Assembly: GCA_023101725.1 (NCBI GenBank)
Contig: JALJCO010003968.1
Span: 124,001 to 188,000, forward strand
Direction: 5' to 3'
DNA: 64,000 bases
Origin: Atherinomorus stipes
Lineage: Eukaryota > Chordata > Actinopteri > Atheriniformes > Atherinidae
How positions within the stretch are numbered: the stretch's first letter is position 1; every line of letters starts with the position of its first letter. Positions 8,398 to 64,000 of the stretch are shown piece after piece. The translations under genes and the position numbers were made by a program. The notes beneath the pieces are model-generated. The model was not told the origin of the DNA. It made no database searches and worked only from the letters and a program-made list of their open reading frames with translations.

Positions 8398-10170
8398 ATT
8401 TATTCAGCCGTATTTGTCTACTGCCAATTCATGACATTATCTCCAGGCACTTAACAGACAAATCAGTTCGAGTCAATTCATTGTCATCCAGTCAGTATCC
8501 ATACAACCCAATTCATAATAGATAATAACTTGCAGTCAGTAGCTAAGGAAACCAATGGGCTGTGTCAAGTCTTGACTTTGATTTAACCCCCAGTCCTCAG
8601 CGTGCACTGGGTTGGGGTAGCAGTGGAGAGGAAAAAACACTCCCTTTTAACACGAAGGAAAATTTTCCAGCTGAACCTGGTTAGCTCAGGGAGGAAACAG
8701 CCATCTGCCTCGACCGGTTGGGCTGGAGAGGACAAGAAAGAGAGGCCAACGGGCACCACAGCTTTCATCTAGCAAAACCTGCTGAGAGAGGAGAAATATA
8801 AGTTCATGAAACTAATACTGTCATAAGTTAATAGATGGAAAAGAAAGAACTAAGAGATGAAAAGGAAAGGAAGGGCTCAGTGCATCATGGGACGTCCCTC
8901 AGCAGTCTCAGCCTAAGGCATCATAACTAAGGATTGGCTAGCCACCCCTAAGATTCATCAAAAAGAGGTTTTAAGCCTAACCTTAAAGGTGAAGAGTGTT
9001 TGCTTCCTGAACCCAATCTGGGAGCAGGTCCCATAAGAGAGACCTGATAGCCAAAGGCTCAGCCTTCCATTCGACTCTTAGAGACTCTTGGAACCACAAG
9101 CAAATTAGTAGTCTAAGAATGAAACGCTCTGTTGGGAATATATGAACCTATAAGATCTTTGATACACAATGGAGCTTGGTGAAGAGTTGAGGAGTTCTAA
9201 ATGTGAGGAGAATTTCAAATTCTATCCTAGATTTACAGTAACAGAGAGCCAATGGAGAGAAGTTAAAACTGGAGAAACATGATTGCTTCCACTTGTTCTC
9301 TTTAGAACTCTTACTGCCTTTTGAAACAGTTGGAGGCTTTTCAGAGCATATCTGTGGTAGCCCAATAATAAGGAATCCCAGTGTTTCAATCTTTAAGTAA
9401 AAAGGCATGGTAACAGGGTGTCCCCAGTTATAGTAATATTTTGTAAGTGGAAGAAGGTAGTTCTAAAACTCTCCTGTTTTATATGTGAGTCAAAGGACAG
9501 ATCCTGGTCAAAACTAACTGGCACTGTAAGCCAAATTAATGCCATTCAGATCGATTGCGTAGATGGAAAATTTTGTCCTGAGTTTTTCCATATCCAAAGA
9601 CAAAAAACACTGGTCTTTTTTGAATTTAGAAGAAGAAAATTCAGAGTCATCCAGGCCTTTATTTCTTTAAGACATCTTTGTAATCTTATAAACTGTTATC
9701 AGGCTCTATTGATACTGTATGTACATCTGAGGGTCATTTGCATAGCAATGAAAGTTCATACAATTCTGTCTAAAAATATTACCCAAGGGAAGAATGTATA
9801 ATGTGAAAAGTACTGGTCCAAGTACAGAACCCTGAGGAACTCCATGATTTACTTTGGTGTATGAGGACAGCTTACTATTCACAAATTCAAATCTATCAGA
9901 TAAGCATGACTTAAACCACCCTATCACAGTTTATTGAATCCAGATAGCATGTTCAAGCCCCTGTAGCATTACCTAATGGTCAGTAGTGTCAAATGCAGCA
10001 CTGATATCCAACAAGATCAGACACAAGACCTTTGTCTGAGACCATGAGAAGATCATTGGTTACCTTGACATGACAATGTGGTCTCTGTGCTGTGATGAGC
10101 TCTAAGTCTTCAAACAGATTATTTCTGCTAAAATGGATACATAATTGAGTTTGAAACTGTGAGAGGTGAG
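8398..10170 (-). mobile_element. L2-type (Maui-like) non-LTR retrotransposon, 5'-truncated and decayed
   Basis: Read on the minus strand it contains reverse-transcriptase pieces in the correct order. Near 10000-9950 there is an A-F-D-T-T-D-H-like block. At 9927-9800 there is W-F-K-S-C-L-S-D-R-F, then G-V-P-Q-G-S-V-L-G-P and F-H-C-Y-A-N-D, where the catalytic YADD box has become YAND. A C-terminal region follows with Q-K-A-V-R-V-L, L-T-S-L-H-W-L and F-K-V-R-L-K-T. The 3' end runs through the well-known teleost segment (CTCGACCGG near 8708) to a terminal motif at about 8400. Many stops and frameshifts make it inactive. Known: L2 LINEs of fish share this RT signature. The right (5') boundary is approximate. 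Confidence 0.85.
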
Positions 10171-23346: not shown

Positions 23347-23580
23347 ATATAACTTCTTTATATCCAAAGACATGCATGTTAGGTTAATTGATCACTCTAA
23401 ATTGCCCCTAGGGATGAATGTGAGCATGAATGGTTGTCTGTCTCTCTGTGTTGGCCCTGTGACAGACTGGCGACCTGTCCAGGGTGTACTCTGCCTCTCG
23501 CCTGATAATAGCTGGGATAGGCTCCAGTAACCCCCGCGACCCTGAACTGGATAAGCGGTACAGAAAATGACTGATGACTG
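23347..23580 (+). mobile_element. tRNA-derived SINE-like retroposon, 5'-truncated, with a 16-bp target duplication
   Basis: ACTAAACTATAACTTC occurs exactly on both sides (23331-23346 and 23581-23596), so this is a retroposition event. The body carries AAAGACATGCATGTTAGG, CTAAATTGCCCCTAGGG, GACTGGCGACCTGTCCAGGG and GGATAAGCGGTACAGAAAATG, ending in an ATGACTG-type tail. These mark a very common teleost repeat. The 5' half with the promoter boxes is missing. Confidence 0.88.
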
Positions 23581-36900: not shown

Positions 36901-37568
36901 TTTGCACCTGGTAACAGGTGCACGGTTGCGCAACTAAAGTCGGCAACAGAAGGTGGGTGTGAAACTCTAGAGCAGTGACTGTTGATGTGCCGTAGTTCTG
37001 CCCATCTCTGATTACATGTGACTTAAGATGACACCACCTTACAACAAGCTGCTTGAGATTCGATATCTTAAAAGATGGAGGCAGAGCAATTTAAAAGAAG
37101 GATGGATGAGTTCTCTGTGTATATGGCAGTTGCTGCCTTTTGCTTTTTAAAGAAGATTCCACCTAAATTGGTTCTTTATTGCTTTTGTTCTCTTGTTTGT
37201 TTTTTTATTGTTTTTTTTGTTTTTTTTATCCATACTTGTAATACACTCCAAAGCTTCTCTTGTTAAACACTGTTAGCCAGCAGCTACTGGTAGAAAGAAG
37301 AGGTCTGCGGACCATATCTGCAGCATTGTATGTGGATCACTAACATCCACCATTTCTCTAATGAGAGGCTTTTCAATGTTTTCACCCCTGAATCTTTGTT
37401 CCTCTTCTGCCTCTTCTCCTCTATGGTCTAATAGTCCTTCTTATTTGCAGTAATGTTCTTTTCTTTCCGAACTTCAGAGCTGTTCCTTAACTCTTTCATG
37501 CTTCTTTTTTTCCCTCCCATGCTTCTGCTCTGCTTTCCTCTGGTTGCACTAACCCCTGACTCCTTCAG
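33966..37568. other. intronic stretch upstream of the 15-nt exon
   Basis: No mobile element was recognised. A minus-strand 72-codon frame at 35211-35429 has an even composition but no domain. The last 100 nt before 37569 is strongly pyrimidine-rich on the + strand, as expected of a splice acceptor region. Confidence 0.45.
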
Positions 37569-37583
37569 ACTGGCAGTATGAGG
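37569..37583 (+). CDS. pcdh15: protocadherin-15, 15-nt coding microexon (equivalent of vertebrate exon 3), partial gene
   Basis: Seen: a 15-nt exon with a strong acceptor (long pyrimidine tract, branch-like CTAAC at 37549-37553, CAG ending at 37568) and a near-consensus donor (AGG|GTAAGAG from 37584). In phase 1 it reads (x)AC-TGG-CAG-TAT-GAG-G, giving a split D/N/H/Y codon, then W-Q-Y-E, then a split codon completed by the 66-nt exon at 39755 as Glu. Known: mature vertebrate PCDH15 begins with an acidic stretch followed by WQYE, then Asp-Cys-Lys-Leu. The protein is a single-pass cadherin forming the lower end of the hair-cell tip link. Its EC1 domain binds cadherin-23, and it is also present in photoreceptors. 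As I recall, the human gene has a 15-bp exon 3 at this spot, skipped in some isoforms. Inference: symmetric phase 1-1 allows cassette skipping without a frameshift. An exon this short would score poorly alone; the identification rests on its join to the next exon. Confidence 0.86.
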
Positions 37584-38395
37584 GTAAGAGGGCAAGGATC
37601 TGTTTTTCTATTTTCATTTTGTATTATTGCCTTCCTGTGATTTGTCATTTCCCTCACTCTCCTTCTGTTGATATACATTTGATCCCAAACTTTCCTCACG
37701 TCAGCAGCATGATGCTTTGTTTTTTCCTCTAAAATAGACTTTCCTTTCTCCTGTCTCCTCCTCTCCATAGCTCCCCTGCTGCCCCATCTGGCGCTGTCTG
37801 TCAGGCTGTCATTACTTGTGTCCCATGTGTTTGTACCATCTAGCTGCTGTGACCTCCATCTGTGAAGCTGCACTCACCTGTGCTCTGCTCATGATGTTGC
37901 CTCATGTTTTCAGCAGTCAGTTTGTCTGGTGTCCCATTTATGTTTCTGCTGAAGCAGTCAATGATTTCACTTTACTGCAGAATGAGACACCATAAAATAT
38001 ACTTGCACTTTATTGTTTATTTCTGCACGACAATGAAATGTTTAATGTGTCTGTTTTTGCAGTTTTGGTTATCATATGTTGGCAATACAGCACTTGGATT
38101 ATCCCATATGACAGTTCTGAATTAAATGTTCGTTTTAAGTAAGCAAAACCACTAATGTATTAATTCTGTTGAACAAAATGCCGCCTGACTGAAATGTAAT
38201 TATGAGTTGCATTATGACATTTAAATAGAAATGTATTATAGACAGGCTTTTTATTGCTAAGAGTGTTTGTGGCAAAGCTGGATTTCACTACATTAAATCA
38301 GTTAGGTTTTTTAGAAAGTTTTTACACTAATTTGAAACTAGGGCAGGGGTGAGACTAAGGCTGAACTCAAATTATTTTACCAATAATAAGAGGAA

Positions 38396-38620
38396 TTTAT
38401 TCTTTGCACTTTATTAATCCCAATTGATAAATTCAACTCATCTTTTACTGCCATCTCAAGTCTTATTTGAAAGCAGTGGGCTGCCAATTACAGTGCTCGA
38501 GGAGCAGTTGGTGTGGGTTACGGACCTTGCTCAAGGGCCCATCGTGGTTCACCTGAGCGCCGTGTCGGGGACTCAAACCCGTGTTTTTCACGTCAAAAAA
38601 GTTGACAAACAAGGCTAACT
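38396..38620 (-). mobile_element. tRNA-derived SINE, minus strand, 5'-truncated
   Basis: Read on the minus strand: a B-box-like GGGTTTGAGTCCCCG, CCCTTGAGCAAGGTCCG, CCAACTGCTCCTCGAGCAC, and the tail TTGGGATTAATAAAGTGC. Same family as 48547-48792. Lies inside the 2.2-kb pcdh15 intron. Confidence 0.8.
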
Positions 38621-39042
38621 TCATTCAGTTAAAATGATAGAGAACAGATTACAGTCATGCGGAAATGGGGAATGTGGTTTCTTTAATTATCACAACATCA
38701 CGACAGTACTTTCATATTCGTAAGACACAATGCCTTTGAGGTCCAGATTACTATAGTTTTGAAAGTGAAAGCATTACCAATGTACAGTATGTATCCTCAT
38801 CAAGATAGAGGTCAGTTATTATATAAAATGATACAGTGATATTTTCAGACAGTCCTGTTGGAAATATGAATATATTTTCACTTTTTAACTTCAGTCTTTC
38901 ATTAAAAAAAATAAAATAAAAAGATTGAACTTTCAAAGCAAGACTTCGCAATCAATTTCAATGAAAAAATATTTTTTGTTTTAACAAGTGTGATCCTGAT
39001 TGTCAACAAAATTGATGTGATGCTTTCTTTGTCTTTGTTTTG

Positions 39043-39104
39043 TTTAATTTAATTTTTTAATTTAATTTAATTTAATTTAATTTAATTTAATTTAATTTAA
39101 TTTG
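39043..39104. repeat. (TTTAA)n pentanucleotide microsatellite
   Basis: About ten near-perfect TTTAA units, followed by T-rich sequence. Confidence 0.93.
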
Positions 39105-39754
39105 ATTTTTTTTTCTTTTTTTTTATTTTATGATATTCAATTTAGTCATTTTATTAAGAAATAGACGTTCAAACAGAACAAAACTACCCAGTCTCAGACA
39201 GTCGATACCATGTAGCCTAATCATCAACCTCTGAGGCTTATTGCTTTTACAGCTGTGAGGTTTGATTGTATTTGACTTCTAGAATAATAAGAAAGACTGA
39301 GGACGCGCTGTCATAACTCCACATGTTGCCTGGATTCAGTTAAAAAACAAAAAAAGAAAAAAGAAAGAAAAACATAAACATGCAATTTTTGCATAACAAA
39401 ACATGCTTGACTGAATATGAAAAAACCCTATTTGTGCAGTGGATAAGTAATTATAACAAACAGTAGAGAAGTGCTGTCACTTAGTGTACATACAGCATTA
39501 TCTCCAAAGTAAAGTATTTCCATTTGCATGCATGTCTTCAGGGGCTGGACAATCTGCAGGACTAGGGGACTAAATTACATGCAACTCAACAATGTGCTTT
39601 TAAGTTCCTTGATACAATTATTTATTATCTTAGATTTTACTGTAGCTAGTGCATAGCAGCCAAAAAACAGTTTCTGTTTTAAATTAAACAAACCATTCAG
39701 CAAACACTAATCCACATTATTTTGTATTAAATCACTTTCTTTGTGCATACACAG

Positions 39755-39820
39755 AATGTAAGCTGTCCCGACCAGGCCCCCCTGCAACCATAGTGACCAT
39801 TGACGAGGAGAGTCCTAACG
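39755..39820 (+). CDS. pcdh15: protocadherin-15, 66-nt exon encoding the start of cadherin repeat EC1, partial gene
   Basis: Seen: acceptor tttctttgtgcatacacag ending at 39754, 66-nt exon, donor GTATGT from 39821. Phase 1 in and out. It encodes (E)-C-K-L-S-R-P-G-P-P-A-T-I-V-T, then I-D-E-E-S-P-N and a split G/D/A/V/E codon. Known: this matches the PCDH15 N-terminus. The cysteine corresponds to mature Cys11, which forms an EC1 disulfide. The second Ile of A-T-I-V lies at about mature residue 22, in the cadherin-23 handshake interface. The D-E-E stretch is where the first acidic calcium-binding motif of EC1 is expected. Against the human protein from memory, the 27 residues over both exons differ at about five positions. 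Neighbours: 2,171 nt downstream of the 15-nt exon. The remaining EC1 exons, ten further cadherin repeats, the membrane segment and cytoplasmic tail lie beyond the window. Alternatives: none plausible; paralogue a or b is unresolved. Confidence 0.93.
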
Positions 39821-45344: not shown

Positions 45345-45886
45345 GTACCGTACCATACCGTCTTCTTCCGCTTATCCGGGATCGGGTCGGGGGGGCAGCT
45401 GCCTGAGCAGGGAAGCCCAGACTTCCCTCACCCCGGCCACAGCTGCCAGCTCATCCGGGGCAATCCCGAGGCGTTCCCAGGCTAGCCGGGAGACCTATTT
45501 CCTTCCAGCATGTCCTGGGTCTCCCCCGGGTCGTGTCCCGGTGGGACGTGCCTGGAACACCTCACCAGGGAGGCGTCCAGGAGGCATCCTGACCAGATGC
45601 CCGAGCCACCTCATCTGGCTCCTTTCTTTACGGAGGAGCAGCGGCTCTACTTTGAGTTCCTCCCGGATGACCGAGCTCCTCACCCTATCTCTAAGGGAGA
45701 GCCCGGCCACCCTGCGGAGGAAACTGATTTCGGCCGCTTGTACCTGCGATCTCGTTCTTTCCGTCATGACCCACAGCTCATGGCCATAGGTGAGGGTAGG
45801 AACGTAGATGGACCGGTAAATCGAGAGCTTCGCCTTCTGGCTCAGCTCCTTCTTCACCACGACGGACCGATGCAGACAGACGATAC
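45345..45886 (-). mobile_element. 5'-truncated LINE 3' end with 11-bp target duplication
   Basis: AAACACAGATC flanks both sides exactly (45334-45344, 45887-45897). The minus strand encodes the C-terminal part of a non-LTR polyprotein: L-T-Y-G-H-E-L-W-V-M-T-E-R-T, F-L-R-R-V-A-G-L-S-L-R-D-R-V-R, R-W-L-G-H-L-V-R-M-P and G-R-L-P-G-E-V-F. This GC-rich tail is abundant in fish genomes. The reading frame is almost uninterrupted over about 120 codons, so it is comparatively young. Exact clade not resolved. Confidence 0.9.
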
Positions 45887-45897
45887 AAACACAGATC

Positions 45898-48546
45898 CTC
45901 AAATGAAAATGAGCATGTTTAGGACGTTTTGTTGTCTCCTGTGTATAAAAGCTCTGAGAAAGGTTGTTTAAACTGAAGCAAAAGGGTACTGTAAACTGTT
46001 TTGTGGTAAAAAAAAACCTACAGGGATGCTACATCTTCTAGCATAAAGAAGAAATAGACTCCCTGACTTTTTATTAGCGCTCAGTTCAAAAGCTTGCATC
46101 TCTGATGGTATGAGGGTGCATTTCTGTCTATGGACTTGATTATTTCATTTGGAAAGATACTCTCATTGCTGAAATATACTGTATATGCAGGTTTTAAAAT
46201 GATATGACCTTTCTTGGAAGATGTCTTTTTCAAGGAAGATTTGGTCCATCGATCACAACAGCATGGCTTCATGGAAGAGTCCAGTCCAATATAGCCGAAT
46301 GAAAAGTAGTTTCAGCGTCCCTCCACCCAAAAGCAGGTCTTTATTCACTGTTTCTTATTTGTGATGGTGAAGCAAAACAACCACCACAACTTTATTGGTT
46401 CATTTTTCTCCAAGGGGCAGCCCAAGATCATGGTTAGATTGAATAAACTGCACTGGAGGAGATACATCTTATTAAGCCAACATTAGTTTATATTGAGGTA
46501 GGCAGCATCACCATAAACTTACATAATTACTGTACAGAAACTATCCATGTTTTAAACGGCATTAAGTAATAACACATTATCTTTTCAGTGTTTAACAGCA
46601 TGGATGATATGGTGTTTAGTTTTTATAAACTTCTAAGTGTTTTTTTGGTTCAGGCAGGATTTTTATTCAGTCCATTTTTACCCCATTATGTCTGCAAGGA
46701 AATAAGTCTTAGAACATTTCCATTGTCTAGAAAGGATTTATTGAAAGTAGATCTCTCTTAGAAAACTGTCTGGCTCCAAGGTCAACAGTCCACTTTTATT
46801 TGCAAGTTTGCAATTCAAATTGCAATTTAAATTTCAATAACCATCACATTTATGTAGAAATATGGATGTGGCTTTTTGGATGTTCTTCTTTTCAACTATT
46901 TAACCATTTGGCTTGACCTTTGAATGTGAAAACATTTCAGATGCAAAGTTTTTACTAGTCATCCTGTGTTGAAATCCAAGTTTGCCATTATCTTGGCAAG
47001 ACCAGCTGATTCTGGACATATGCATAGGTGCAGCTCCTCCTTATTTACATCAAGAGTCTGACTGTTTTTAAACTTATTATTTAAAGGCTGGCAGTCTGCA
47101 TGATGACCCATTTGTAAAATCACACAATTAACCGTATTTGTCTAGAACTGGATAATGTTAAAAACCTCACAATTGAATTTTAATTCAGTTCTGGTTGCAA
47201 CTCGATTCAGTCTCCATTTGATTTTGATTTAATTACTTCAATTTTTGATTTTCAAATAATTCAATAAGAAGTAGAAATACACATAACTGGAATTTCTGTT
47301 GCCAATTTTTAAGTATTTATTTGCTTCCCTATGTGAACATATTTGGTACATCACCTCATTTTGCTTTGAGCAATAAAACATTTGAAAATGAAAAATAGTT
47401 GCCATTTTGTTGCATGATCTAATTTTGCTTCCCTCCATACAATGTAAATAGCACCTACAGGGTGGAAAAACCTGCAAAATGTGTCAAAAATTAAATAAAC
47501 AAAGACAAAGAAAATCAATAAAAACCCTGTCGTTTGCAGGCTGAGCAGACAGTAGTTTTCGTTTCCCAGAAGCACCTCTGTCTCAGCATCAAGCATGATT
47601 TTGTTGCTGCAGTTTCAGGTTTAACTAGCTTTTGGCAGACTGTAAGCCAGGTGTTTACATTTTGAAATGTGATTAATCATAATTAATTGTAATTACTCCA
47701 CAGTTATCCTGTGATTGATCACATTGGAAATTGAAAAACATGCATTAATCAGAGATGCTTCTATATCAGCTGTTGTGACATTTACTTTTCCTCAATTCAG
47801 TTTAAGAAATGTGCAGATAACAGAACCTGGACAGAGTTATAAATAAAACTCTATTAAAATCAGAAACTGATAAAAACTGCTTAACATTGAAACTTCTGAG
47901 TTTTTCACATCTAAAAGAACGGTGGCACAAATATTTCTACTATTTTATGCTCTTTTGTTGCTGAAGTACTGAGATTATTTTTTCATGTGACAAACTACAC
48001 TCTTGAAAAAAAAAAAAAAGAAAGAAAGAAAACAACTGGGTCCCTTTCTTGCTTCATTTTCAGAAGCTGCAAAATCTTAGTGCTTAGAGACAAAATGAAG
48101 TGGCAAGAACACCAGAGTCTGTTAGATGAACAAAGTAAGCCACTTAAAACCTGTGCAGTCTTTCAGCTGTGTTCTTTGCTCTGTTGTCAACTTTTTCCTG
48201 ATTGTTGTCTCATATTTAGAATCTGCGTCTGTTTTTAGTCCCTTGTCAGTTCGCTTGTGTATCCTTGACGTGACATTAAAAGATTTGATAGGGCCGTAAA
48301 TATAGTCTCAAAGGTGAATATCATGTCTACTTAAAGGTCTCTCACCTCATCCTCTAGCTCTTTTCTTCTCCAGAAGTGTTTATTTTCCTCCTGAGCAAAA
48401 TATCAGGTCCATTTTTTTATCGATTAACTAAGATTCACAGAGCTTTGAGGTATTTTAAGTGAATAATGTGTTAGTTTAAACAATTAACATAAACCAGCTT
48501 ACCAAGTGTTTTTTTAAATTACAAGGACTCATTATTTCTCTCTTTT
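45898..48546. other. intronic stretch with nothing recognised
   Basis: Poly-A followed by GAAA repeats at 48007-48032. No exon or element was recognised. Confidence 0.4.
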
Positions 48547-48792
48547 AGGGGTGGTGGGTAGCGTAGAGGCAATGTTGCAGGCTTTGGCGCCGCAGACCTG
48601 GGTTCAAGTCCACAACATGGCACTCAGGTGTACTACTGCAGACCCTTGAGCAAGGTCCCCCACCAACTGCTCCTTGGGCGCTTTAATTAGCAGCCCACTA
48701 CTCTCAGCTTCAACCTGAGATGGGTTAAAATGCAGAAAATGAATTTCTTAATTGGCACACTAGTTGGGATTAATAAAGTATTTCTTAAAAAT
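48547..48792 (+). mobile_element. tRNA-derived SINE, near full length
   Basis: A-box-like GGGTAGCGTAGAGGC at about 48556 and B-box-like GGGTTCAAGTCC at about 48600 lie about 45 nt apart, as in a pol III promoter. The body has CCTTGAGCAAGGTCCCCCA and CAACTGCTCCTTGGGCGC. The tail is TTGGGATTAATAAAGTATTT. Both flanks carry a similar TCTC(A)CTTTTA, a possible imperfect target duplication. Confidence 0.82.
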
Positions 48793-52228: not shown

Positions 52229-52277
52229 TGTGCTTGTCTGCTTGTCTGCTTGTCTGCTTGTCTGCGTGTCTGCGTGT
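52229..52277. repeat. (CTTGTCTG)n octanucleotide microsatellite
   Basis: Five to six TGCTTGTC units passing into CTGCGTGT repeats and a GT-rich end. Confidence 0.9.
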
Positions 52278-55415: not shown

Positions 55416-58400
55416 GCCAAACACACCTGGATTAATCAGTTTGTCCAGTAATGAAAGACAGGAAGCAAAGGTGCTGTCTGAAGTTCAGGAAGCAGTGGAA
55501 CCGTGCATATAGCCCATTCAGAGAAGCGGGACATAATGAAGCCCACATGTAAAAAATGAATCAGCTGTAAAAGGATCTTAGCAGATTTTATGCTAATCAA
55601 AATCACTGGAAAAGGCTTCTCTTTTATGCTCTCATGTCGTCAAATGTCGTCACGTCAACCGCCAATTAGGGATTTCCATAACATTCAATGAGAGACCCTC
55701 TGCGTCATGTACGAGATGGGTATACCCCGCGCGTGAACAGGTGACACGGAGGGAGCCTGCCCAAGCGTCAACAGATGACGAGTTGGGAGTGAGAACGTGT
55801 TGTTCACGTGAAGAGCAGATTTCTGACAACAGATGTCTGTGTTGCTGGAGGCGATAATGCATCTTCAATTATGAAATTCTGACATTGTCATCATCAGCAT
55901 GCACGGTTGCTGTTGGCCAGTACAGTCAAAATCTCTACTGTTGACCAAATTTATTTGGTTTCCACTGTATATTGTTTATACCACCCACCCTGATACTCAC
56001 AGAAGAAAAAAAAAAACTTGCCTTGGAAACCATGACTTCAGTCATCTACTGTAACTCAGGGCAATGCTCTTTGAATGAGCACCGGTCTGAGATAGATGTC
56101 TAAATGAGGAAGGAAAAAAAATGTATATTTTTTTACAATGCCAAAGAGTGTATCAGAAGACAAAAGAGGTATCTGTGTAAACACATTGTGAACAAAACCT
56201 GTAAAGAGATAAAATAGGTTTTTCCTGAAACAGAGATAAGTCACAACAGATTACAAAGAGGTTAATTGGATTCATGGTGTAAGACAACAAACCTAATGTT
56301 ATGACAGAGTACATGGATTTCTTTAGATTTGGTACTGCCTTCCAAAGGTGATGTATCCATGGTGTTACCTGAGTTGTGACAACAACTATCCTCCACCTCT
56401 GAGGTTTTTTACCTGATTTAACCACTGTTGGCTTAACTACAGACATTTGAGGTGCTGAGATCCAGCTAGTTTCATTGCACACCGTTCTGATTTTTTGGTT
56501 GTTTTTCGGTTGTTTTTTTTGTTTTTTGTCCTCACTGGACCAGCTAAGGTGAAAAGTTTGGATGCTTGGTATTGATTTCATTATCTTTTATTTACTGTAG
56601 TTTGTGACTGTGTCTTGTATTGTAAATATTTGATTGATAATTAGTTTTGGCAGGTACTCAATCTTACATGACCCATATTGGTTCCGAAAAACAAAACAAA
56701 CAAACAAAAAAGAGACTTGATTGGGACAATCCTGGCACAAGGGCTCACAAAGCCCATCACAGGATACATAACTGGCTCAGTGTATTGCCTTCATTCATAT
56801 TAAAACAATGACTGTATTCCGCTTTGCTCTTGTTATTAAGTCTGAATCTATCAGCTTCCATGTGAATATTTCCAGTCTAACAACTAGAAAACTATTCAAA
56901 TCATTCCACTACTTTCTTCATAATTTCTGTTCCTTATGCCTGTTCATCACCATAGCAATGTGGATATAGCTATCTGCTATCAGGATAAATAAAAGCTATC
57001 TGCCATTAAAGAACTGATGGGACTTGAGTCATAGAGCAAGTCTGTGCATTCTTTGTTGAGGTGAATCAGGTCTCAGATACTTCTTCATGGTTATGGTAAT
57101 GTATGAACCTTGGCAACAGATTTCTTGTTTGGTTTGGACCAGAAAAAGCTCCAACTGCCTGCCAGACAACTGGGTTTCCCAGTTAAGAACCTTCTTGAGC
57201 CTAAAGAATAACCTTGAGATCTTACCAAAGAAGGGTTGCTAAGGACTGTTTCCCAGATGCCTTCTAAGTGGCATTCTAAAGGTCATTTTATTTAACTAAT
57301 ATAATCCCTAAATATTAGACAGATCAATATCAATTTTGTTGTGCTGTTTCACAACTCCAACCTGTGTGTATATTTACTTCTTTCTTTACTTGTTATGGCT
57401 GCACATATGTGCAATCGCTTGCTAAGAAGGGTTGAAAGACTGGATCAGAGTGTTCTTTCAGATCCTTCTCCGCTAAGATCTTCATCACGCTATGAACACA
57501 TTTTTCTTAAAAAGAAGCCAAAAGAACATTCTTAAGATGATCTTAGTGCTAACATTTTAAATGAATCTGGAAAACCCAGCCAATGTTTGTAACTTACTGC
57601 TACGTGGACGAAAATCTGTTTTCTTGTAACTCACGAGACCCTTGGACATTTCATAATTGCTTTACATCTTTTGATAAAATGTGAATATCATGTGCTGAAC
57701 TCAGAAGAACTGAGCTTCCAGGAAAGCACCAGGTGTCATTCTGTTAAAACGCATCTGATATGTCCAGTACTGTAGCTTCTTATTGCTGTATTTTGGCTGT
57801 AGAAATTATGAGCATGTTTGTTTCATTCGACAAAAGTTTTCAGTGCCAAGCACTACCTTAAGCGTTTTGTTTGTCACACTTCTGTGGAGTACAATTTTAT
57901 GATTTTAAAAGTTGCACTGTAGTTGTAATAGTTGCAAGATTTACATCACATCCTGCACTTACGATGATGCAGAGATTATAAAAATGATTAAACATTTAAG
58001 TCTGACTTGATTGTGGGTTGCTGTATGTGACTATTTGCAGCATATCTCCTTTTACTTAAACATCTTTCAGGCTGCTTACCACATCATATTGTTAAGACAC
58101 TGAAGTCAAACAAACTAAAACATTTTCTAAATTTATTAATTTAAACTGCAGCTTTAAAACTTAATTGCTGGGTGCATTTTGTTGAAAGGAATTTATTTTT
58201 TTTACAGTGTGACAAGTTTGGGTGAAACTGAAATGCAACTTGTGTTTTTGAATGATAACTATAGTCAGCTGTGTTTTATTAATTATTGTCTAACTTATTT
58301 TATGAATACTTTTAACTAATTTATTTGTTATCTTTTAATTCAAAGATTTAAATAAGGTTTTGAAGCCATTTTATAGAGATGATTTGATTTGACAATATCC

Positions 58401-60360: not shown

Positions 60361-60485
60361 CTCTCATTCATTCATTCATTTTCTATAACACTTATCCAGT
60401 TCAGGGTTGCAGGAGCCTATTCCAGCTATTATCAGGCGAGAGGGAGCGCACACCCTGGACAGGTCACCAGTCTGTCGCAGCATCA
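60361..60485 (-). repeat. 3' end of the tRNA-like SINE repeat, minus strand
   Basis: (ATTC)n then TTTTCTATAACACTTATCC, GGAGCCTATTCCAGCTATT and CACCCTGGACAGGTCACCAG is the complement of the 23347-23580 family. Confidence 0.8.
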
Positions 60486-61368: not shown

Positions 61369-62086
61369 CTTTTTTTTTATTTTCTTTATTGAAATACCAC
61401 ATCATCATAACAAAAATGGTTACAAAATTGCAATAAATATTTTTTTTTTTTTTTTTTTTTTTGTATATACAGCTCGCCCATGGAACATGGGTGCAAACAT
61501 AGAACCTGAGGTGTTCTTTCACTTTTGTCAAGAGTAAAGGGGACTGTTTGAAATTAAATAGACAAAGTATTAAAAATAATTTAAAACTGAATCAATTAGA
61601 TAAAGGAAGGGCACCTTGAAGAAATATATGTTTTCCCATAGATTCCAATTGGTTTCAAATTTTAATTTCTGTAACCTGATGGAAAAAGTAATTCTTTCCA
61701 TTATGAATGTTTTATAGATGATATCATACCAGTCCTCAATGGATGGGCTGCCAGCCATTTCTTAGTGATTGCTTTCCTGGCTGCTACACTCAGTATTCCA
61801 AATAAATATTTAGTCTTTGTGTTTGTCGATATTGAGTGTGATATTCAGAAAAGAAGTTCATCCCAGTTAAAAACAGTTTTGATCCAAATATAACTCTTAG
61901 TTCTGTGCAAATTTTTTGCCAGAATATAGTTACAACTGAGCAACCCCAAAAAAGGTGAGAGTGATTGGCTTCCTCGGAGCCACATTTCCTCCAGCAGCTA
62001 GATGAGTCTGACTGATGAGAACTCTGGTGTAATAAAGTACCTACAAAGATTTTTCCAGGCAAAAGTTCTCCATGAGGTTGAGTTTT
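61369..62086 (-). mobile_element. L1-type LINE 3' end with 13-bp target duplication
   Basis: TTTGCAGTACTTT occurs exactly at 61356-61368 and 62087-62099. A poly-A tail (T run on +) starts at 61369. The minus strand encodes the L1 ORF2 C-terminus: C-W-R-K-C-G then H-L-F-W-G-C and F-W-Q-K-I (the CCHC-like Cys/His box), then A-A-R-K-A-I-T-K-K-W and, after breaks, E-R-I-T-F-S-I-R-L-Q-K. A second 22-nt T run at 61441-61462 lies in the 3' UTR. Strongly 5'-truncated, as usual for L1. Confidence 0.93.
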
Positions 62087-62099
62087 TTTGCAGTACTTT

Positions 62100-64000
62100 T
62101 TAAGCAGCAGCATGATACTCATGCTGACAGAAAATCCTTTTGGTTCGGCACTTGTCACACATGGATCATTGTCATTCTGATAGAGCTTTCAAACCGATTG
62201 CAAGCAGTATATTTGGCTCCATGTAAACGTAGCTGGTGATCATATATGGCAGGAAGAAAACACATTCAATTAGATATCTTAGAATTTTTTAGAAATTTAC
62301 TACTTAGGAGGCTTTGGGGCAAATTGCCTCTTTACATTGATACAGAAATGTTTTCACTTAGTGTCACTTCAATACTTGCTCCTTCGTCCATGACATTTTA
62401 GGAGTGCAGTGATTTTTCTCTGTTAGATGTGTCTGGTGCAGATCATCCATCTTCCCTTTCCCTTGGTCATATCAAGCCCAATAAGTATGTCATATAATGT
62501 TTTTTCTGCATAGGCTTTATAGTGGAGTAGTAACGGCACAGTGCTGTATTTTGATTTAGAAATGTGAAGACTATTTGATTTTCTCTCCCTGTCTGCATCT
62601 TTATTATGCTTTCATTTTAGGGAAGGCCCCAGATGTAATATATTTTTTCCCCTTGGCTGAAAGAAAACAATGAAGAAATGTTTCACAAACAGTACAAAGT
62701 GCCAAACAAAGCTAAACTTATGAGAGGTAAAATCTGAGCACCTTTCATTAAGTTTGTGAATATTAATAAATATAAAGTGTTTATTTTGTTCAAATGTTTA
62801 ATTTAAAAAGCTGTCTGTTTGGTCTCAACTGAATTGATGCAAGGATCCAAGTGAGATTACCACAATCCAAAGCCAGGAAAAATCTTTTTACCTCTTCCAA
62901 ACATTAGTCATATAAAGTTTATATCAGCTTTTTCATGTGAGCAGATGAGTTCGAAACACAAGTGGAACAAGTCAGAGCCGGACTGGGGGGCGGGGCAAAT
63001 GACCAGGCCCTTAAAACCCAAATGATAAAGCTCATGATAACGTCACTTTACAACATACACATGCCCGCAATGGCCGTGCTTACGAGCACCATGGAGAGCG
63101 AGTAGCCTGTTATTTTGAAGTCCATCAAACAGGCATGAAGTAAACAAACCAAGAGAACAACATGATGCTACATGTCACTAATGAAATAACAACAGAAGTT
63201 CAAGCAGTTCAGCACCACGGAGAGCGACCGCGTCATTTTGACACCCACTGTATTTAACCATTTCAACTCAGATTCTTTATCAATAGCTCTAAAGTTTAGT
63301 AACGCTGGCACAGCGGCCCACTTTCACTGAAGCGCTGCAGATCTACTCACCACTATGTGAAGGGCATAAGATGAGCCTTGTGCTCGTAAATAGTCCACGC
63401 TGCTCTGTATGTCCATCCATTTTCTTTGCTCTCTCATGGACATAGCAGGCCCACTCAGTGTCTCCTGTTCCACTCCACTCCCCACACAGTGAGTATAATG
63501 ATTGTTAGAACTGCTACCTGTAATAAACCTGCTCCCTGGCTGTGCTGGCAGTTCTGGGCGGACCTGGATCATTGCCACCAAAAAAGTTGGGTTCATCTCC
63601 AGGACAGTGACCAAAACGTGTCCAGTTCCTGTAACTTGGCTCTTTTTTCCTTTTCTTTTCAGTTTGCCGCTCCACTTATATGCTAATGAAGTGCATCATG
63701 TCAACTTAGTCCGTTAGAATGACTATTTAGTGCACTTGAATACAAGCAGCACCACTAGAAAATGATATTTGTAGATAAACTGTAGCCTACAGGCCGCGCA
63801 GTGGTCAGTAAGCAGGTGTTCATGTAACATGAGATAGGATATTTACACAAAAAGATAACACAAACAAACAAACAAACAAACTTTTAGCTATTTTATACGG
63901 GTAACACGCATAGGCTAAATACTGTAAATGTTTTTCTTTCTGTCTAAACCTTGCCTGTAACGGGGCTGGTTTTAAAAAATAAATAAATAAAACTGATGTC
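62100..64000. other. intronic stretch with nothing firmly recognised
   Basis: A GC-rich patch begins at about 62976 (GAGCCGGACTGGGGGGCGGG) and may be the end of an old DNA element. (AAAC)n is at 63858-63881 and (AAAT)n at 63977-63991. Confidence 0.4.

Follow-up and report, generated by a model that had tools for sequence, protein, structure and literature searches.

A probable cassette microexon at the start of protocadherin-15 in Atherinomorus stipes

Two short exons of the protocadherin-15 (PCDH15) gene lie on the + strand within a 64,000-nucleotide stretch of DNA from Atherinomorus stipes, which is referred to in its entirety as the window (Table 1). PCDH15 is a known deafness gene. Its product comprises eleven cadherin repeats, a transmembrane helix and a cytoplasmic tail, and the N-terminal tip of the protein grips cadherin-23 in the tip links of hair cells. 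The gene is already known, variation at its N terminus is visible in solved structures, and the exons described here are no new discovery. A stretch of 64 kb with 81 coding bases was enough for the gene to be recognized without tools.

Table 1. Features of the PCDH15 locus, in positions of the window.
Feature	Position	Strand	Evidence
15-nt probable cassette microexon, protocadherin-15	37569..37583	+	sequence, splice sites, block match
66-nt protocadherin-15 exon, start of cadherin repeat EC1	39755..39820	+	tblastn, PDB match, weak Pfam match
Intron separating the 15-nt and 66-nt exons, 2171 nt, GT...AG	37584..39754	+	
Microexon 3' splice-site region, four TGC motifs	37509..37568	+	

A preliminary description of this DNA had proposed two exons at these coordinates, both of phase 1-1 and with consensus splice sites, and both exons are real in each of these respects. 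Each is bounded by AG and GT, with the contexts TTCAG/ACTGGCAGTATGAGG/GTAAGA for the 15-nt exon and ACACAG/...CCTAACG/GTATGT for the 66-nt exon. The 15-nt exon encodes (D/N/H/Y)WQYE plus one base of the codon that follows, and the 66-nt exon encodes (G)ECKLSRPGPPATIVTIDEESPN(G). Read together, the joined exons yield (N)WQYEECKLSRPGPPATIVTIDEESPN(G), with an incomplete codon at each side, and this translation agrees with the peptide given earlier, in which WQYE is followed by a sequence beginning with E. Because the 15-nt exon is in phase 1 at both ends, either its inclusion or its skipping preserves the reading frame. Moreover, the 66-nt exon begins with AA, so a preceding G creates a Glu codon whether it is supplied by the microexon or by an upstream exon. 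The sequence ECKL within the 66-nt exon contains the cysteine of the N-terminal region of EC1, presumably C11 in the numbering of mature PCDH15.

Assignment of the exons to PCDH15, as also proposed in the preliminary description, is supported by comparison of the joined peptide with solved structures and Pfam, which together were the scope of the identity comparison. Nine distinct PDB chains match at E values up to 10. Seven of these belong to PCDH15, with E values from 1.2e-11 to 4.1e-6, and are the only significant matches, and the other two are integrin beta-4 (E 2.3 and 2.5); among solved structures, no rival protein was found below an E value of 2. The joined peptide carries the signature of the mature PCDH15 N terminus and the start of EC1 (WQYExCKL...GPPATIV..IDEES). 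In addition, a 27-residue piece matches the Pfam family ECD (PF18432) at profile positions 1-22 of 110 with 13.3 bits versus a cut-off of 25, and the sole other Pfam line for this piece, zf_topless, scores lower. On sequence grounds the gene call is solid, although the ECD match falls below the Pfam cut-off.

Searches of the window for other PCDH15 exons, conducted by using tblastn with queries for human EC1-2, exon 5 and the signal peptide, returned only the 66-nt exon as a significant match. The next-best matches have E values of 5.8 for EC1-2, 1.1 for exon-5 and 0.14 for the signal peptide. The window thus shows no sign of the signal-peptide exon expected upstream or of the EC1 exon expected downstream, both of which may lie beyond its ends. 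Because neither flanking exon was detected, the connection of the pair to the remainder of the gene depends on 81 nt. The negative result for the signal-peptide exon carries little weight, because signal peptides diverge. One candidate (positions 55575-55616, + strand) has 14 residues, ILADFMLIKITGKG, that resemble the beginning of the PCDH15 exon due next (E 2.1) and lie in the right order, but it was taken as a chance match because its edge lacks an acceptor AG and the resemblance does not extend beyond these 14 residues. The preliminary description further held that only 81 nt of the window is coding, which is consistent with the tblastn searches for PCDH15 exons and with Pfam scans of 17 distinct stretches, but falls short of proof.

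The Pfam scans covered 20 stretches, 17 of them distinct and two of them short pieces selected by a motif, which are a small part of the 447 stop-to-stop stretches of at least 50 amino acids in the window. The first 10 open reading frames (ORFs) matched no family at an E value of 0.01. The second 10 stretches, which include three ORFs of the first batch in extended form, yielded two matches, both below the Pfam cut-off. One of these (RVT_1, E 4.1e-5) is to a reverse-transcriptase remnant on the - strand at 9751-9912 that contains GVPQGSVLGPVLF, and the other (zf-RVT, E 0.02) is to a possible LINE tail, CWRKCG...HLFWGC, on the - strand at 61793-62188. No stop-free stretch in the window is longer than the one at 45498-46028 on the - strand (177 amino acids), which contains SIYVPTLTYGHELWVMTERTRSQVQAAE and has no Pfam match; we take it to resemble common fish LINE or retroelement ORFs. 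No Rfam family reached its gathering score in the window, and no tRNA was found in it by ARAGORN with the bacterial code. Among repeats of at least 60 nt, the window contains three inverted pairs and no direct families. A 77-nt inverted pair (23457-23533 and 60404-60480) is 90% complementary across 36.9 kb. A diverged inverted pair (38451-38597 and 48583-48723), whose two pieces are 71 and 79% complementary and of which one copy falls within the 2171-nt intron, is likely an interspersed repeat. An array of about six copies of TGCTTGTC with 97% matches is present at 52231-52277.

The two exons differ in how much evidence each can provide by itself. When the EC1-2 query is compared with the window by using tblastn, the 66-nt exon is the best match (44.3 bits, E 8.75e-8), whereas the best match per window in 100 simulated windows ranges from 18.9 to 25.0 bits. 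By contrast, 15 nucleotides hold little information, and by itself the 15-nt block does not reach significance (E 23), so the case for it is built on its order, strand and phase, on its splice sites and on its uniqueness. One could therefore propose that the 66-nt exon is genuine PCDH15 and that the 15-nt block is a look-alike that arose by chance, and a loose microexon pattern, in which 3-30 nt are allowed between a pyrimidine-rich YAG and GTRAG, indeed fits eight + strand sites in the window. However, the block precedes the 66-nt exon as it should, on the correct strand and in the correct phase. Also, a six-frame translation of the 64 kb contains WQYE at a single place, position 37571, and when exactly 15 nt are required between the pyrimidine-rich YAG and GTRAG, the microexon is the only + strand site in the window. 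A pattern comprising the microexon and its flanking AG and GT, with synonymous third bases allowed, is found once on the + strand of the window and in none of 100 simulated windows, which were generated as first-order Markov sequences with the same dinucleotide frequencies and were also searched on the + strand. A chance resemblance is thus exceedingly improbable.

An alternative that applies to both exons is that they belong to a PCDH15 duplicate that is decayed or partial, such as a lost copy from a genome duplication, and that has kept this pair of exons without yielding a functional protein. The failure to detect a flanking PCDH15 exon in 37.5 kb upstream or 24 kb downstream would fit such a duplicate, and any judgement is possible on 81 nt only. 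However, both exons have open frames, none of their four splice sites is damaged, and the joined peptide agrees with a solved PCDH15 chain at 24 of 26 residues. Moreover, very long introns are usual for PCDH15. A decayed duplicate is therefore very unlikely, if somewhat less so than a chance 15-nt block. We are almost certain that the window instead lies inside a large PCDH15 gene on the + strand, in which an in-frame 15-nt microexon, probably a cassette, is followed by the 66-nt exon.

The interpretation of the 15-nt exon as a cassette is suggested by differences among solved PCDH15 chains. The chains 4apx_B, 6n22_A, 6cv7_A, 6mfo_A and 11iy_C read (Q)YDDDWQYEDCKL and contain a five-residue block. 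The block is missing from 4xxw_B, which reads QYDDDCKL where the other chains have QYDDDWQYEDCKL. Over the 35 positions compared, 4xxw_B is identical to the query throughout, and it therefore lacks the DWQYE block. The short form represented by 4xxw_B is thus PCDH15 without the five residues that a 15-nt exon of phase 1-1 encodes. Because the five-residue difference equals the gain from such an exon, the microexon is the genomic counterpart of the variable block, and because it encodes what 4xxw_B lacks, it has the look of a cassette whose skipping would leave the frame intact. On the basis of sequence, it is probably a cassette microexon of PCDH15.

The TGC motifs in the 3' splice-site region are located at -49, -43, -38 and -24 relative to the microexon acceptor, so that four occur within 60 nt. 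Across all 60-mers of the window the mean is 0.97, and a count of four is reached by 1360 of 63940. The window has 187 acceptor-like sites that are pyrimidine-rich, with a mean of 1.13, and eight of them, including that of the microexon, have at least four. Since the motif was picked after the sequence had been seen, this enrichment is suggestive at best as a lead to regulation. UGC motifs upstream of microexons are a hallmark of regulation by SRRM3/SRRM4, a family tied to hair cells. Perhaps the microexon is regulated in hair cells or neural tissue by an SRRM3/SRRM4-type factor that acts through the upstream UGC motifs, and so sets the strength of the tip-link grip, as may hold in mammals, but we regard this as a doubtful proposal. 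Local RNA folding in the region of the microexon shows nothing unusual (z 0.25).

The microexon and the 66-nt exon are predicted to supply the N-terminal tip of mature PCDH15 together with the beginning of EC1. Inclusion of the microexon would produce ...DWQYEECKL..., as in the usual solved form, whereas skipping would join the 66-nt exon to a presumed upstream exon ending in G and produce ...ECKL... with the frame kept, as in the shorter solved form. Narui and Sotomayor reportedly observed that a short form, N2, bound cadherin-23 several-fold more weakly, and we take 4xxw to be this form. Given this weaker binding, the likely role of the microexon is that of an affinity switch at the end of the tip link. 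We infer the same role for Atherinomorus stipes, where the microexon may likewise be skipped and skipping may tune tip-link affinity. The exon pair is the cassette structure expected to underlie the two solved N-terminal forms of PCDH15, and it is present in Atherinomorus stipes. If the animal is a fish, a lateral-line model could test a splice switch that tunes affinity.

The encoded peptide closely resembles the solved chains that have the full N terminus. In PCDH15 EC1-2 structures of this kind (PDB 4apx, 6cv7, 6n22, 6mfo and 11iy), the sequence follows the pattern WQYE-[DE]-CKL-x-R-x-GPPATIV-x-IDEES-x-N, and the window presents these elements in the same order. The best PDB match, 8e51_C, is the chain to which 24 of the 26 residues of the joined peptide are identical (E 1.2e-11), and it shares EECKLSR and EESPN with the window, which differs by having P for T and T for A. 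These shared residues and the fish-like retroelement ORF at 45498-46028 make a teleost origin plausible. A hybrid query aimed at further 8e51_C sequence returned this chain as the last of seven. The chain 4apx_B is identical at 21 of 26 residues (E 1.7e-9), and relative to it the window has E for D, S for A, P for G, T for A and P for R. The window reads IVT where the PDB chains displayed read IVA.
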